A stretch of 64,000 nucleotides of DNA from Candidatus Saccharimonadales bacterium (GTDB lineage: Bacteria; Patescibacteriota; Saccharimonadia; Saccharimonadales; UBA4665), in contig DASVRW010000002.1 of assembly GCA_036388415.1 (NCBI GenBank), positions 124,001-188,000 on the forward strand, given 5' to 3'. The position numbers were made by a program, and so were the translations under genes. Shown here piece after piece: positions 4,868 through 11,380 of this stretch. Position 1 is the first letter of the stretch. The number at the start of each line of letters is the position of its first letter. A model generated the notes under the pieces. The model worked only from the letters and a program-made list of their open reading frames with translations. It searched no databases and was not told the origin of the DNA.

Positions 4868-5572
4868 ATGTACAAACGCATCCTACTCAAGCTTTCCGGC
4901 GAACAATTATCAGGTAAATTCGAAGGTGGTATTGATGCTGAGCTTGGCGCCTGGTTGGCTCAAGAGGTCAAAAAAGTGATCGCGAACGGTACGCAGGTCG
5001 TGATCATGGTTGGCGGCGGCAATTATGCCCGCGGGGCCCAGCTGGCCGGTCATGGCATCGGACGAGTCACGGCTGACAATATCGGCATGTTGGCGACACT
5101 GATGAACACGCTGGCACTGTCTGATATCTTCAATGCTCAGAATGTGCCGACTCGTGGCGTTAGTAGTATTGTAGCCGAACAAGTGGTCGATCCGTTCACA
5201 CATCGCCGCGCCATCAGTCATTTGCAGAAAAACCGGGTGGTTATCGTCGGTGGTGGTATTGGCCGGCCGTACCTGACGACGGATACTGCCGCTGTCAGCC
5301 TGGCGCTTGAGCTGGAATGCGAAGTAGTCCTGAAGGCCACCAAAGTCGACGGTATCTACGATAAAGACCCGGCTAAGCATGACGACGCCAAACGATTTGG
5401 GAGCTTATCGTTCCAGCAGGCAGTTGCCGACGATGCCATCATGGTCATGGACAAAGCGGCTCTCGGACTCGCCATGGAACATGACTTACCAATATTAGTG
5501 TTCGATTCATCGGTATCTGACAATATCTTGAAAGCAGTTGCCGGCGATCCAGTCGGAACTATCATCTCATAA
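4868..5572 (+). CDS. pyrH: UMP kinase
   Basis: 234 residues of the amino-acid-kinase fold. It phosphorylates UMP to UDP with ATP, the committed step to UTP/CTP. Motifs are ILLKLSGEQLSG (phosphate-binding Lys/Gly), IMVGGGNYARGA, a NIGMLATLMN UMP-pocket helix, VVIVGGGIGRPYLTTDTAA, and KATKVDGIYDKDP for nucleotide binding. These are the hallmark sequences of bacterial hexameric PyrH. No frr or tsf neighbour is present, unlike in many bacteria. Transcription probably starts at or next to the ATG. Confidence 0.96.
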   Translation: MYKRILLKLSGEQLSGKFEGGIDAELGAWLAQEVKKVIANGTQVVIMVGGGNYARGAQLAGHGIGRVTADNIGMLATLMNTLALSDIFNAQNVPTRGVSSIVAEQVVDPFTHRRAISHLQKNRVVIVGGGIGRPYLTTDTAAVSLALELECEVVLKATKVDGIYDKDPAKHDDAKRFGSLSFQQAVADDAIMVMDKAALGLAMEHDLPILVFDSSVSDNILKAVAGDPVGTIIS

Positions 5573-5671
5573 CATTTGTATTCAAGATCGATATAATCAA
5601 ACCATATTATTGCTATTTGTAATAAATAGGTCTACATTATATTTTAAGAAACATAGCCGGGAGTTTGATAT

Positions 5672-6979
5672 ATGGGTCGTAGGATGATCTTAGGTAGTTC
5701 GGCATTGGTTCTGGGTGCAGCAATTGGCGTGCCATTAGGGGTGTACACGAGCGTAAATATCGACTCTGAAACAGACCCAGTTACAAAATTTTTCCATAAC
5801 ATGGGTGAATCTTATGATTCGGTCGGTCATGTTTTATCATTCATGGTCCAGGATGCGACGTGCTTCGCTAATGATGCCTGGTGTCCAACCGAGCCAGCGC
5901 GGGATGTGCAAACAAAGTCCCCGAGTGTACAATCCCAGGATCCATCCGCGGCACCAGCACCAAAAGACACCCCTTCACCCTCCCCGGCATCCGCAACAAA
6001 GACGAATAAAATAGATCCGATTGCCGAAAACTGCATGAGCCGGCATATCTCGCTCAGTGAGCGGCTTGGTAAATTGATGATGATCAAGGTCGACGCAAAT
6101 AATACTGCTCCTATGACGCCGTTATTTAATTCGTATCATATTGGTGGTGCGGTTCTGACGGGTCAAATTGCCGATCCAAGCAAGGGTGAGGTAAAGGAAT
6201 TCAAAGCAGCCACGAACGCACTGATTGCAGTCGAACAAGGTGAAATCAACCAGCCATTTAGTAATCTTAGTCTGCTACCTGCTCCGGCAATAGTTGCCGC
6301 GACGCAGACACCTGAGCAAGCAAAGACAATGGTGGCAGAACATGCCCGCAAACTGCATGAAGCCGGTGTCGATGTGGTACTTGGCGCGCAGTTTGAGCAG
6401 ATGCCATCGAGTAATACGGCTATTCAGTCTGATCAACATGATCAGGATTTTGGCAAGAGTCCAGAAGAAATACGACAGTACAACACTGCTTATCTGCAAG
6501 GCTGGATCGACGGTGGAATTCTGCCAGTAGCCGAGCTATTTGGTGACGACACCGATCTGCAGTCATACAATAATCTGGGCAACAATTTTGGCGACAATGT
6601 CGGAGCTTTAACTCGTCAACATGCTACGACTAATCCAAATAATGTGCAGTCAGCTCAGCTGAGTACAAAAGATATTACTGGCAAATTAAGAAATCAAATG
6701 GATTTTAAAGGGCTTATCATCACCGAGTTGTTGAGTAATGAATCGATTCAGGGAAAATTATCTGTTGCCGTAGGCCGTGCGCTTATTGACGGTAACGACA
6801 TGATATATGTTAAAGATTCCCCTGCTGATACTAGTTGGAACGCACAGCTGTATGCAAATGTAGCAAAATTACAAAAATTATATGAGTCAGGTGAGCTAAC
6901 AGATAAACGAATCAATGCTTCGATAGTGAGAATCCAAAATACTCAAGAAATCAAAATCACATACGATCCATTGTGTTAA
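5672..6979 (+). CDS. Membrane-anchored GH3-fold (NagZ-like) protein, probably inactive
   Basis: 435 residues: an N-terminal membrane anchor (ILGSSALVLGAAIGVPLGVY), a Pro/Ser/Ala-rich linker to about residue 115, then a domain laid out like a family-3 glycosidase (LSERLGKLMMIKV, IGGAVLTGQI, EAGVDVVLG, GILPVAELFG, FKGLIITELL). The diagnostic NagZ motif KHFPGHG is absent and the usual nucleophile Asp of the ISDD-type motif is replaced (ITELL). Hydrolysis is therefore doubtful and a binding or scaffold role more likely. A related protein is at 27422-29215. An SD (GGGAG) lies 7 nt before the ATG. Confidence 0.6.
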   Translation: MGRRMILGSSALVLGAAIGVPLGVYTSVNIDSETDPVTKFFHNMGESYDSVGHVLSFMVQDATCFANDAWCPTEPARDVQTKSPSVQSQDPSAAPAPKDTPSPSPASATKTNKIDPIAENCMSRHISLSERLGKLMMIKVDANNTAPMTPLFNSYHIGGAVLTGQIADPSKGEVKEFKAATNALIAVEQGEINQPFSNLSLLPAPAIVAATQTPEQAKTMVAEHARKLHEAGVDVVLGAQFEQMPSSNTAIQSDQHDQDFGKSPEEIRQYNTAYLQGWIDGGILPVAELFGDDTDLQSYNNLGNNFGDNVGALTRQHATTNPNNVQSAQLSTKDITGKLRNQMDFKGLIITELLSNESIQGKLSVAVGRALIDGNDMIYVKDSPADTSWNAQLYANVAKLQKLYESGELTDKRINASIVRIQNTQEIKITYDPLC

Positions 6980-7042
6980 ATACCGTCTTGTTAGTCACCA
7001 ATGAAAAGAGTAAGCTTATGCCTATAACACCATGTACGACAT

Positions 7043-7303
7043 ATGTCTGAAGAACTAAGATCACGCGATCGAAAAACAAATCTCATGGCGATCGGCGCAG
7101 TCATAGGCTGCTTGTGTGCGGCAAGTGGACTTAGTGACGAGGTCTTTAATCAAGGCAAAATCCGGCACGTGGTTACCGACAAAACTATTGAATACTCTAG
7201 GGACTTTATCGATCAAAACATCGGCTCGTTAGGATCACCATCTTTTGTACTCGATGAGGCTGTGCCGATATATATTCATTCTGCGGTTATTCGACAATCC
7301 TAG
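7043..7303 (+). CDS. Small protein with N-terminal hydrophobic segment, unknown
   Basis: 86 residues: a charged N-terminus (EELRSRDRKT), a short hydrophobic stretch (LMAIGAVIGCLCAASGL) that could be a membrane segment, then a polar tail. It follows the GH3-like gene in the same direction at 63 bp. No clear SD is present, so the start is uncertain. No family is recognised. Confidence 0.45.
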   Translation: MSEELRSRDRKTNLMAIGAVIGCLCAASGLSDEVFNQGKIRHVVTDKTIEYSRDFIDQNIGSLGSPSFVLDEAVPIYIHSAVIRQS

Positions 7304-7315
7304 CTTTACGCCTGA

Positions 7316-8128
7316 TTATTTAAAATCTTTGGAGCCTTGCAATAACCACTCTATGATCTGATATGCTTCACGGATACGGTTAACTGCCTTTTTTGTACGT
7401 AGCGGATCCTCGCTATAATAGGGTATCTTGCCCTCTAAAGTCAGCTCAGCAAAATACAGCTGACGTGCGATTCTTACCATCACGTTTCGGCTGTCGATAT
7501 TTTTTGTGTGGTCGAAGGGTCGGCCGTAGACGGTGATATTGCGCATTGGAGCAATGAGCATTTCGCGAATTATTGTATCGTGATGAACAAAGCCTTTATT
7601 GCGTATATCGTCTGGTACGAAAGCATTGCCTAATACGTTTTCTATGCCCATAACAGTCAAAGAAATCTTACGCACATTATCTGTTTGGTCAAGGATGTCG
7701 ATGCCTTCGTTGAACGTAATGTAATCGAAAAAAGAGCCACTGAGAACAACGTCAAAATCAATATCTCCTGGCTTTTCGGCATGAGCGTATGAGCCGGCTA
7801 TAGATATGTGCTCAATAGTGAACCCGAGCGGTCCGTAAGTTTTGTCTATAAAGTCGAGTACGATTTGTAAGTGCTCATTGATATGTACGACACGTTTGAG
7901 CATACCATCTCGCTCATAGACATTACCCTTCTGGTACCAATAGTTGTAAAGAAGTTCTTTTTGCAATACTTTTGCGTCAGCACCTATGTTCAGATAGCTT
8001 GGCTGAAATTCAACCAGAGGATATATAACGTTGAATGGCAGACTATCACGGTCATGATAGCTGTGTTCACTTGCATCACCCGGTTTCGCCAAAGTGACGT
8101 ATGGTTTTTGAGGTTTGGCAGTATTCAT
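7316..8128 (-). CDS. Pol-beta-superfamily nucleotidyltransferase
   Basis: 270 residues. The motif IAGSYAHAEKPGDIDFDVV is the GS...DxD signature that binds the nucleotide and two metals in minimal nucleotidyltransferases. The C-terminal half is helical and basic and could bind the acceptor. Substrates of this superfamily include RNA ends, proteins and antibiotics, so none can be assigned. Its ATG overlaps the stop of the PrnB-like gene (TAATG), so the two are translationally coupled and probably work together. It is the last gene of the minus-strand arm of the AT-rich island. Confidence 0.75.
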   Translation of the reverse strand: MNTAKPQKPYVTLAKPGDASEHSYHDRDSLPFNVIYPLVEFQPSYLNIGADAKVLQKELLYNYWYQKGNVYERDGMLKRVVHINEHLQIVLDFIDKTYGPLGFTIEHISIAGSYAHAEKPGDIDFDVVLSGSFFDYITFNEGIDILDQTDNVRKISLTVMGIENVLGNAFVPDDIRNKGFVHHDTIIREMLIAPMRNITVYGRPFDHTKNIDSRNVMVRIARQLYFAELTLEGKIPYYSEDPLRTKKAVNRIREAYQIIEWLLQGSKDFK

Positions 8129-9192
8129 TATGTGTTCTCCCTGGCTCTTACAAGTTTAATCGTATCAGAAAGCATATCAGGCTCAGCGGCAGTAAGGCTC
8201 TTCCCTTTTGCCGACAGGCCTTTATCAGCATAAGATTTATGCGCTACTTTTTGCTTCCTAAGTGAGACCGTTATTTCTCGAGCAATTTCGTGCATAGGAG
8301 TGCCACGAGTAAGTTCGACGATGCTTTTATTTGCATCTGGAGAATTGTTTAGGCTTTTCAAGAGAGCTTTATGATGAGACGGTATATCTTGTTCTCGATA
8401 GGCAAACTGACTTGCTAATGAAAGATTATTTGCCATAAGCTCATATAGAGATCCAACAACTAATCGGTCAAATGTCATTAATCCGCTGTGGCTAGGATTT
8501 GGTCCCTCATAATTTTTATCTCCGATGGTTATTGGACCTAGGTAACGCGTCAGCCTGTTGGAGACAAATTCTGGACCGACCTGACGATATGTGTCTGCCA
8601 TAAGACTTTGCATTTCAGTTGTTGATCGTAATACTTCAAGGAGGCGATCATTTGCTAATTCGTTATTACCATCGCTTACGGCATTACGTGCGTCAAGTAA
8701 ATTGTGGATACCATTATGTGCAAGCTGAATAGTATTATCAAAGATTGTTAATAAGGCGATTTCCGCCGCTTCACCAGTGTAAGTTGCGCCTAGATTTGCC
8801 GGCATACTTGCAGCATAATCATAAAAATTAGCACGAGGGTTCATGCCTCGTTGTATGAAATAATCAAAAGCGTAGTTGCTTGTCACCGCTTCGGTTAGTT
8901 TAGTCACTTTTCGCAGGACGAGTGCACCCGTTGCTTTATCTAAGTCCCGCCGTAGAGCTATAAGCGAGGTTTCATCAGCATCGCGGTGTTCTGTTATCCA
9001 GTCGTTTGATCGAGAAAATAGCTCCATGGCAGTAGTCGAAGTGTTTGACGAAGGATCTTCACTTTGAAGTTGTTCAAACAAATTATCATTGGACGCATTT
9101 AACGGGTCTAATTTTGCAGCATCAGCATGTGCATGTAAGAACGCATTATCTAATGCAATAAATTGTTCTGAAGTTATTGACAACATTGTCAT
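8128..9192 (-). CDS. PrnB/indoleamine-dioxygenase-superfamily-like protein
   Basis: 354 helical residues. From memory of Pseudomonas PrnB (monodechloroaminopyrrolnitrin synthase, a haem protein acting on 7-chlorotryptophan), several blocks align. They are a NPxA...YTG...E region; a P-x2-F...L...PI-x2-G...Y-x-GP block (VGPEFVSNRLTRYLGPITIG, then YEGPNPSHSG), followed by V-x-GS; then YREQ; and a late His (KVAHKSYADKG) where the proximal haem His is expected. Haem binding and action on tryptophan or an indole are inference only. The gene is coupled to the nucleotidyltransferase and shares a divergent promoter region with the zinc-ribbon gene. A second in-frame ATG lies at 9186. Confidence 0.6.
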   Translation of the reverse strand: MTMLSITSEQFIALDNAFLHAHADAAKLDPLNASNDNLFEQLQSEDPSSNTSTTAMELFSRSNDWITEHRDADETSLIALRRDLDKATGALVLRKVTKLTEAVTSNYAFDYFIQRGMNPRANFYDYAASMPANLGATYTGEAAEIALLTIFDNTIQLAHNGIHNLLDARNAVSDGNNELANDRLLEVLRSTTEMQSLMADTYRQVGPEFVSNRLTRYLGPITIGDKNYEGPNPSHSGLMTFDRLVVGSLYELMANNLSLASQFAYREQDIPSHHKALLKSLNNSPDANKSIVELTRGTPMHEIAREITVSLRKQKVAHKSYADKGLSAKGKSLTAAEPDMLSDTIKLVRARENT

Positions 9193-9204
9193 ATATTATA
9201 TACT
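9177..9204 (+). promoter_or_regulatory. Consensus promoter with palindrome, divergent control region
   Basis: TTGACA (9177-9182), 16 bp, then TATACT (9199-9204) drives the plus-strand gene. The -35 overlaps the inverted repeat TGACA-ACAT-TGTCA (9178-9191), a possible operator. Read on the minus strand the same AT tract offers TATAAT just before the PrnB-like ATG, so one repressor site could control both arms. Confidence 0.65.
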
Positions 9205-9215
9205 ATACACTAATT

Positions 9216-10196
9216 ATGCGCAAGTTGATAATGAATGCACCGATTCAAAACCGGGAATTTAATCCAGACGGACAGTTAGGTAAAGTTGTTCCACTTTTTG
9301 TTGCCGCTCATCTTCGTACGCAGGATGCATATATGTCTACTCCCGTCGAGTTATGGAACAATGTCATAGCTCAGGAACAACTCGGCTATGACGCCCGAAA
9401 ATATGAAATTCGCAGCACAACTATGCTTGATCAAAAGTACGGTAGCTCAGTGCTGTCGCTTTTACATAGTCAGACTGGTGAGGCAGAAATCATCGCAGAT
9501 GATGACTCGGATTTTACTAAATGGGCGACAACCGTAGTAGAGAGTGGGCTCGATTCAGGAAATATACGCATCGAGGAGGAAACAGTGTATGTTTGTCAAG
9601 ATTGTCATGCAACTTTAGCTTTAGCCCACGGGCCAAAACCTCGGAATTGTGCATGTTGTTATGGATCAGGCGGAATAAATGAATTAAATACAGTTGCGAT
9701 GACGGCTACCATAACGCCAGAGGCATTAGTATCGACCGCTCATGCCACAAAACAGTCAATACAGCTTGATTTAAGCGGACGAAAGTTTATTATCAACAAA
9801 CGACGTGTTACGGGAGTTGGTCTTGAATGGGCAGGTTTTGCAGACGATGTCTTAGATCCTCGTATTGGAGTAGGCTTGCTTGGGCTCTATGCTGCTATCC
9901 GCAATAACGCTGATGCCGTAGATTTTGTATCAAGTCGATCCGCAATTTCTCATAATTTACCACAGTTTTTTGCTGCAATTGCATCCCAGTGCGATACATT
10001 ACCGGCTCTCGAGATGGTTGGAATAGCGAAAGCTCCAGCAAACTACTTATCTATGCTTGTAAATAACCACACATTAAGTGCAGATCAAATGGTATCTGGG
10101 TTGAAAGATCGACTTGCGCCGCAACTCTTGAAAATGCGTAAAGATATGACACCACAATGCGCCGAGCAGCTTCTTTTTTCGCGCAGATTCAGATAG
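9216..10196 (+). CDS. Zinc-ribbon protein of unknown family
   Basis: About 326 residues. In the middle, CQDCHATLALAHGPKPRNCA followed by CC has the Cys-x2-Cys...Cys-x-Cys spacing of a zinc ribbon. The preceding VYVCQDC distantly recalls zinc insertions of class I aminoacyl-tRNA synthetases, but no HIGH or KMSKS motif is found, so this is only a hint. The C-terminal third is helical and basic. The start is uncertain: ATG 9216 lies 11 nt after the -10 box, and ATG 9231 is also possible. The TTG at 9177 is inside the promoter. The gene lies directly upstream of the TrpRS-like gene. Confidence 0.65.
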   Translation: MRKLIMNAPIQNREFNPDGQLGKVVPLFVAAHLRTQDAYMSTPVELWNNVIAQEQLGYDARKYEIRSTTMLDQKYGSSVLSLLHSQTGEAEIIADDDSDFTKWATTVVESGLDSGNIRIEEETVYVCQDCHATLALAHGPKPRNCACCYGSGGINELNTVAMTATITPEALVSTAHATKQSIQLDLSGRKFIINKRRVTGVGLEWAGFADDVLDPRIGVGLLGLYAAIRNNADAVDFVSSRSAISHNLPQFFAAIASQCDTLPALEMVGIAKAPANYLSMLVNNHTLSADQMVSGLKDRLAPQLLKMRKDMTPQCAEQLLFSRRFR

Positions 10197-10225
10197 TTGA
10201 CCAAAATAAACAAACATGATAAAAT
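10197..10225 (+). promoter_or_regulatory. Promoter for the TrpRS-like gene
   Basis: TTGACC (10197-10202), a 17-bp spacer, then TAAAAT (10220-10225), directly after the stop of the zinc-ribbon gene. The ATG follows 6 nt later, so the mRNA is probably leaderless and expressed apart from the upstream gene. Confidence 0.65.
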
Positions 10226-10231
10226 ACTATT

Positions 10232-11215
10232 ATGAATTATGCCATCGAGTCATTTACAGGTATTCGTCCGACCGCTGACTTGACTGTCGCAAATTATATT
10301 GGTGCTGTTCGTCCTGTATTAGATCGTGAATCAGATGGACAGTCTACATCTATTTTTCTAGCCGAGTTGCATGCAATTACTACTGCTCCTCCTGCTGACG
10401 TAATCAAGAATTCAAGGGAGCTTGGCAGGACTCTCATAGCAAGTGGTCTTCAAGGAGATATATACAGCCAACGCGAAGTGCAGGATTTAGTGTTTGAGGC
10501 AGAACATTATTTGCTAGGACTGACGAGCATATCCCGGTTACTTCGACTTCCAACGCTTAAAGAGAAAGTGACTCAATCTGATAACACGGAAAATGCTACA
10601 GTCGGGCTGGCAATGTACCCTATGCTGATGGCTTCAGATATAATTTTGGCACGTCCGGCTCAAGTACCAACTGGAAAAGATCAGAAACCTCATTTGGAAA
10701 TAACAAACGAGCTTATCAGGGGGTTTAATAGGCAGCATGGTGCACGGCTTCCTGAGCCACGAATGCTTGAGGTTGAATTACCTAAAATTATGTCTCTCGA
10801 CGGCAGTGGCCGCAAAATGAGTAAAAGTATTCCGAAAGGAGCGATCTTTTTAGACGACACACCACTCTCGGGCTTTAAAAAAGTCATGAAAGCTGTTACG
10901 GCTTCTGAACCTGGTCCCGTAATGGATAGCGCTCTCGACAATATGATCACAATGGTAACAGGCCTCGGTACCGAATCTGATATTGCAGGTCTAAAAGTAA
11001 CTGCCGACCAAATTCGAGAGGGCCAGCCGTGTATAAAAGATTTTAAGGAACAGGCTGGCGATGCAGTTCGCGGCTTCCTTACGGACATGCAGGAACGGCG
11101 AGCTTCTGTTAGTGACAGCGAGGTTTCGCTCCGGATACTCGAAGGTAGCGAACGATTTCGACCGATTGGACAGGCCACTCTCAATTACATGAGAGATATG
11201 TACTGGTCTCGCTAA
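10232..11215 (+). CDS. Tryptophanyl-tRNA synthetase-like protein
   Basis: 327 residues, the normal TrpRS length. Visible motifs are GIRPTADLTVANYIGAV (the HIGH-equivalent, here with TVAN), FLAELHAIT, YPMLMASDIILARPA (Trp-pocket Asp), VPTGKDQKPHLEIT, and GSGRKMSKSIPKG (complete KMSKS). Attachment of Trp to tRNA-Trp with ATP is therefore feasible. It may be the only TrpRS of the cell, or a second copy serving the island: its own promoter, AT-rich codons and PrnB-like neighbour favour the second, but this cannot be settled from one window. No anticodon-domain loss is apparent. Confidence 0.85.
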   Translation: MNYAIESFTGIRPTADLTVANYIGAVRPVLDRESDGQSTSIFLAELHAITTAPPADVIKNSRELGRTLIASGLQGDIYSQREVQDLVFEAEHYLLGLTSISRLLRLPTLKEKVTQSDNTENATVGLAMYPMLMASDIILARPAQVPTGKDQKPHLEITNELIRGFNRQHGARLPEPRMLEVELPKIMSLDGSGRKMSKSIPKGAIFLDDTPLSGFKKVMKAVTASEPGPVMDSALDNMITMVTGLGTESDIAGLKVTADQIREGQPCIKDFKEQAGDAVRGFLTDMQERRASVSDSEVSLRILEGSERFRPIGQATLNYMRDMYWSR

Positions 11216-11292
11216 TATTTCTATAAATTTTTATAAATAACATAAGAGACGTTGATAAATATAATTGTGGATTGAGTGTACGATAATCTGCC

Positions 11293-11380
11293 TGGCGGAG
11301 GGAGGGGGATTCGAACCCCCGAGGGCTTGCACCCAACACGCTTTCCAAGCGTGCGCCATAGGCCACTAGGCGACCCCTCC
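11293..11380 (-). tRNA. tRNA-Ser(GGA)
   Basis: The acceptor GGAGGGG pairs with TCCCTCC (one G-T), with discriminator G and encoded CCA. The anticodon stem CACGC/GCGTG holds loop TTGGAAA with anticodon GGA. The long variable arm is type II. The T-arm GGTTCGAATCC is intact. A promoter TTGCGT-N16-TAAAAT (11418-11391) lies just upstream. Its 3' end faces the island at 7.3-11.2 kb. Confidence 0.96.

Follow-up and report, generated by a model that had tools for sequence, protein, structure and literature searches.

A horizontally acquired island linking a PrnB/IDO-fold protein, a second TrpRS-like protein, a zinc-ribbon protein and a nucleotidyltransferase in Candidatus Saccharibacteria

Oxygenases of the IDO/TDO/PrnB superfamily are described as using primary substrates based on tryptophan or tyrosine. 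FbPrnB binds the carboxylate of its substrate through Gly210, Gly211 and Ser319 together with a haem propionate (PMC11791213). An auxiliary TrpRS can also work with a haem enzyme on tryptophan, as exemplified by TrpRS II with nitric oxide synthase (NOS) (PMC9437257). Judged by analogy, this pair is the nearest functional precedent for the locus described here. Other precedents are the indolmycin-resistant copies of TrpRS and the aaRS-like ligases SbzA and AcmF (PMC9437257, PMC12945691).

A 64,000-nucleotide stretch of DNA (the window) from a genome of the Saccharimonadia (G000; 1.14 Mb, two contigs, 99% complete) was analyzed. A first-pass annotation, made from the sequence alone, had described four genes around one divergent promoter and knew of no such combination described in CPR bacteria. 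Open reading frame analysis placed the four genes at the same coordinates (Table 1). They are arranged as two operons back to back with a very short gap, one pairing the prnB-like gene with that of the nucleotidyltransferase (NTase) and the other pairing the genes of the zinc-ribbon protein (ZnR) and the TrpRS-like protein (TrpRS2). In the former pair, the stop of the prnB-like gene and the start of the NTase gene are joined by a TAATG overlap, as annotated. The putative divergent promoter matched the sigma-70 consensus at 11 of 12 positions; the scan, which relied on this consensus alone, returned 18 promoter-like sites in the region versus 10.2 expected. The CPR setting was likewise borne out, as the two homologous loci in the named collection belong to Candidatus Saccharibacteria. 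Within the open-access literature, no described system of such composition was found.

Table 1. Positions of the island genes and of neighbouring landmarks in the window
Feature	Position	Strand	Description
NTase	7316-8128	-	270 aa, minimal pol-beta-type, motif GSYAHAEKPGDIDFDVV; begins within the end of the prnB-like gene (TAATG)
PrnB/IDO-fold protein	8128-9192	-	354 aa, divergent; candidate proximal haem ligand His318
Sigma-70-like promoter	9177-9204	+	TTGACA-16-TATACT; would serve the ZnR-TrpRS2 operon; consensus match only
ZnR	9216 or 9231-10196	+	~326 aa, zinc-ribbon protein of an unnamed family, 4 invariant Cys
TrpRS2	10232-11215	+	327 aa, TrpRS-like, divergent second copy
tRNA-Ser(gga)	11293-11380	-	right border of the AT-rich insert; landmark outside the system

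The four-gene island is a horizontally acquired low-GC insertion at a variable locus. GC content drops from ~51% to 42% across positions ~5600-11200 and then returns to 51%, and third-position GC amounts to 0.32-0.43 in the four genes versus 0.53-0.62 in the flanking genes, which are retained in other genomes of the genus. The span from pyrH to tRNA-Ser(gga) is 5.7 kb in the window versus ~1.1 kb in G097, 1.7 kb in G096 and 2.4 kb in G276; in a fourth sister genome, G295, the contig ends at this site. The cluster is missing from the site in the sister genomes. As the spans differ, the site is variable and the island is one of its occupants. The gap itself (window positions 5573-11292; 1.1 to 5.7 kb in this genus) is occupied in G276 by another insert, likewise of low GC content (41-44%). 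In the window, it additionally holds a low-GC gene at 5672-6979 for a secreted-looking protein of 435 aa, which has a relative of 26% identity at the corresponding position of G096, and a low-GC open reading frame of 86 aa at 7043-7303 beside the island. Both seem to be part of the variable site rather than of the TrpRS2 cluster. Integration through a tRNA-borne att repeat was rejected, as tRNA-Ser and positions 5000-11200 share no exact repeat of at least 10 bases. A phage origin was rejected as well, since searches gave no homologue of ZnR or the NTase in phages and none of ZnR or PrnB in viral contigs. Assignment as an anti-phage defence system was dismissed because none of the four window proteins matched a PADLOC model, weak domain hits being the most that was returned.

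The annotation had named the 354-residue product PrnB/IDO-like from its order of motifs, and the structural match that was then still outstanding has now been obtained. The window protein by itself missed the 27-bit gathering score of the Pfam family PrnB (PF08933; E 0.075, 12.2 bits). A search among 295 Saccharimonadia yielded four homologues, and three of these belong clearly to PF08933 (E 8e-22 to 3e-31, 78-109 bits). A profile of the five sequences matched the crystal structure of PrnB (2v7i) over its full length with E 4.7e-41, its proximal His falling at the PrnB PH motif; this residue, His318, is invariant in 7/7 proteins. An AlphaFold2 model built from seven family members (pLDDT 81, pTM 0.83) exhibited the IDO-type fold over the whole chain, the feature that marks membership of the IDO/TDO/PrnB superfamily. 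The alignment contained true PrnB relatives, which renders the model only partly independent of the sequence evidence. Its best match in the PDB was PrnB (Foldseek E 2e-7; VIA Z 28.4 over 325 residues, 3.1 A), followed by IDO1 and IDO2 with Z about 25. The protein thus resembles PrnB (monodechloroaminopyrrolnitrin synthase) and IDO (PF01231) in full-length fold and placement of the proximal His, with homology established via intermediate Patescibacteria sequences, and it may bind haem. It differs from them in its score under the Pfam cut-off, its replaced carboxylate loops and its linkage to a TrpRS, and the cluster lacks PrnA/C/D halogenase or Rieske partners.

The FbPrnB residues were mapped with a chain offset of 20 taken from the profile alignment, which located them in the loops GAGGGQ and GSAGY. 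In five other Patescibacteria PrnBs, these loops read GGAQ and GSG(S/G)(Y/F). At these positions, GPNPSHSG and GK(S/K)LT are present both in the window protein and in its orthologue from G276; in the window protein itself (EGPNPSHSG and GKSLT), carboxylate loops of the FbPrnB type are absent. The two proteins are 45% identical overall in a sliding comparison, and the two best-kept blocks are exactly the first loop (90% over 20 residues) and the stretch from His318 to GK(S/K)LT (75% over 20 residues); the loops have thus not decayed. We read this as a TrpRS2-linked enzyme on which selection acts and whose substrate has changed, plausibly to one lacking a free carboxylate. A masked-carboxylate substrate is proposed because the loops for a free carboxylate are replaced by a different, strongly conserved sequence, a replacement seen in just these two proteins. 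The glycines are not strict, since PfPrnB carries Ala and Val at the two positions; the carboxylate contact may therefore run through the backbone.

Another, Patescibacteria-wide cluster was observed. In it, a PrnB-profile protein is accompanied by two kinases, one of the GHMP and one of the P-loop type, and by a Ham1-like NTP pyrophosphatase; the cluster is devoid of TrpRS and was found in five genomes from several families (L019 7818-11752, L020 6172-10166, L021 5895-9912, L107 7500-11538 and L108 4878-8880). Often there is also a SAM methyltransferase or a small protein bearing IGEMSR(A/S)SQTLGF. Three tested PrnB members exceeded the Pfam PrnB cut-off. This cluster looks like another undescribed pathway.

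TrpRS motifs, which had been seen directly in the first pass, were verified by a match of TrpRS2 to PF00579 (E 4e-34) and an intact KMSKS. On TIGR00233, TrpRS2 reached 170.2 bits, slightly below the equivalog cut-off of 176.75, versus 269.4 bits for the canonical TrpRS encoded elsewhere in the genome; as this canonical copy is present, a housekeeping role for TrpRS2 was rejected. Each of five genomes of the genus contains one TrpRS of the housekeeping type, and only G000 and G276 have a second one. The second copies are 58% identical to each other, and TrpRS2 is ~31% identical to the housekeeping enzyme. Residues equivalent to the tryptophan pocket of bacterial TrpRS are kept (His47, Tyr129, Met133, Asp136 and Gln151); on the basis of established TrpRS knowledge, we take these positions and KMSKS to have their usual roles in TrpRS2. 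The HIGH motif reads TVAN in both second copies versus TIGN or HIGN in solved TrpRSs and the housekeeping copies. With the signature glycine lost, ATP use might be altered, and TrpRS2 may therefore not form the adenylate. A dedicated tRNA-Trp for TrpRS2 was also sought and rejected, as a pattern search gave a single tRNA-Trp in the genome, unlinked to the cluster.

The zinc ribbon of ZnR was substantiated by four Cys residues that are invariant across 13 homologues. The ribbon resembles those of translation proteins; a match to DnaJ merely reflected the common CxxC ribbon and was set aside. Upon comparison by hhalign, ZnR scored against ValRS above 150/150 shuffles, and a search of the PDB gave MetRS at E 0.04. 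With 13 sequences this aaRS-like signal was weak; it lay near that of reversed decoys, and an AF2 model from three sequences had a pLDDT of 33.5. These comparisons are suggestive, though not proof, of a degenerate class I aaRS-like protein. For the NTase, the GS...DxD motif is present by eye, in keeping with the first-pass assignment; the 270-aa sequence matched no family model in Pfam or NCBIfam. ZnR was detected in 3/393 Saccharimonadia and the NTase in 2/295. Pol-beta-type NTases of three unrelated kinds occur beside ZnR, and because such neighbours recur without being orthologous, ZnR is argued to work with NTase activity.

The cluster recurs in G276, where TrpRS2, ZnR, a pol-beta NTase, an APH-type kinase and then the divergent PrnB-like gene form a contiguous set. 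The gene order differs from that in the window, and the set resides on contig C14, whereas the pyrH/tRNA-Ser site of this genome is on C22. The suspected co-occurrence in a related genome is thereby confirmed for TrpRS2, ZnR, the PrnB-like protein and an NTase, with the reservation that the G276 NTase comes from a different family. Reappearance at another site and in another order disfavours chance neighbourhood. In G267, a member of another family, ZnR and an NTase homologue of 53% identity lie close together with an alpha/beta hydrolase, without PrnB or TrpRS2; the halves are thus separable. Beyond the phylum, 22 Streptomyces plasmids were found to carry ZnR homologues (best E 1e-17). The eleven loci read mostly comprise a histidine phosphatase, ZnR, an APH kinase and an NTase, some of them rearranged or broken by insertions. 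This linear-plasmid operon resembles the Saccharibacteria clusters in its ZnR homologue, its NTase neighbour and a kinase as in G276, which the window lacks. It differs in that neither TrpRS nor PrnB is nearby in the eleven loci, and its kinase and NTase belong to the same superfamilies as in G276 but orthology was undetectable by BLAST. The plasmid operon (L096-L106) often adjoins parA/parB, and plasmids of the S. goshikiensis type add two methyltransferases and a GntR regulator. The Streptomyces ZnR homologue is annotated as hypothetical, and no described function was found. The association of TrpRS2, ZnR, an NTase and a PrnB-like protein is thus real, recurrent and apparently undescribed; the folds that make it up are known ones, and the lineage has reduced genomes.

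As a tentative reading, possible though short of an even chance, the island could be a horizontally acquired cassette that modifies tryptophan by activation, oxidation of a masked substrate and completion by NTase and ZnR. TrpRS2, a duplicated TrpRS freed from housekeeping, would activate tryptophan or an analogue as an adenylate or tRNA ester. The PrnB/IDO-fold haem protein would then oxidize the indole of the carboxylate-masked substrate, and the NTase (plus the kinase in G276) and ZnR would complete or attach the product, which might be a nucleotidylated or phosphorylated small molecule. We infer that the island belongs to a specialised-metabolite pathway in which tryptophan with a masked carboxylate (Trp-AMP or Trp-tRNA), or else a different Trp-derived substrate, is oxidized. 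The fold, the proximal His, the second TrpRS, the recurring linkage, the horizontal insertion and the altered pocket loops are observed; haem binding, catalysis, the masked tryptophan, the order of the steps and the small-molecule product are inferred. The more specific version, aminoacyl-tethered tryptophan chemistry in which an IDO-fold haem oxygenase acts on TrpRS-activated Trp (Trp-AMP or Trp-tRNA) and is coupled to nucleotidyl transfer in an ultra-small episymbiont, is rather unlikely. As with TrpRS II and NOS of Deinococcus, where the haem oxygenase acts on tryptophan, the cassette pairs an auxiliary TrpRS with a putative haem oxygenase. The fold of NOS is a different one, however, and the window has an IDO/PrnB-type protein with linked NTase and ZnR. 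SbzA, AcmF and the PEARL pathways (ammosamide) likewise employ translation-derived aminoacyl activation for small molecules, some from Trp-tRNA, whereas a precursor peptide, a PEARL and a known acceptor are all missing from the cassette and TrpRS2 retains the TrpRS architecture.

Self-protection would explain the second synthetase differently: the cluster, by way of the PrnB-like oxygenase, the NTase and partners, would make a Trp-derived inhibitor of TrpRS, and TrpRS2 would be the insensitive copy sustaining translation, as in producers of indolmycin. Its identity to the housekeeping copy is in the range typical of resistant copies (PMC9437257), comparable with the ~30% of the indolmycin-resistant TrpRS1 of Streptomyces; moreover, it shares an operon with a cluster gene and adjoins a Trp-modifying haem-enzyme fold. 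TVAN in both TrpRS2 proteins is nevertheless unexpected if translation must be supported. It also sets TrpRS2 apart from TrpRS1, as does the IDO-fold neighbour. Neither an exporter in the conserved set of both genomes nor recognised genes for a known inhibitor accompany it, and we regard self-protection as somewhat unlikely.

The variety of NTases beside ZnR, the likeness of its ribbon to those of translation proteins and its faint aaRS-like signal would also fit a system directed at RNA, with TrpRS2, ZnR and NTase repairing, tagging or modifying tRNA or some other RNA and the IDO-fold protein serving as a haem/redox sensor or aminoacyl modifier. This explanation is unlikely, considering that the partner kinases are of the small-molecule APH type, that PADLOC hits were weak and that the sole linked tRNA gene is the tRNA-Ser at the insertion edge. 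Joint action would not be needed at all if NTase with ZnR and PrnB with TrpRS2 were separate cargoes that had come to lie in one AT-rich island. Such independence agrees with the arrangement in G267 and with the variable locus; it is quite improbable given that the same families stand together, rearranged, at another locus in G276 and that each operon of the window mixes the pairs (prnB with NTase, ZnR with TrpRS2).

For the IDO/TDO/PrnB superfamily, a subfamily with the haem ligand, replaced carboxylate loops and a TrpRS of its own would point to a substrate class undescribed for the fold. Actinomycetota, the phylum of Streptomyces, is also the host phylum of the cultured Saccharibacteria. 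A costly accessory pathway in a reduced Saccharibacteria genome suggests a role in the interaction with the host, and the ZnR module held in common with Streptomyces plasmids offers a cultivable entry point.
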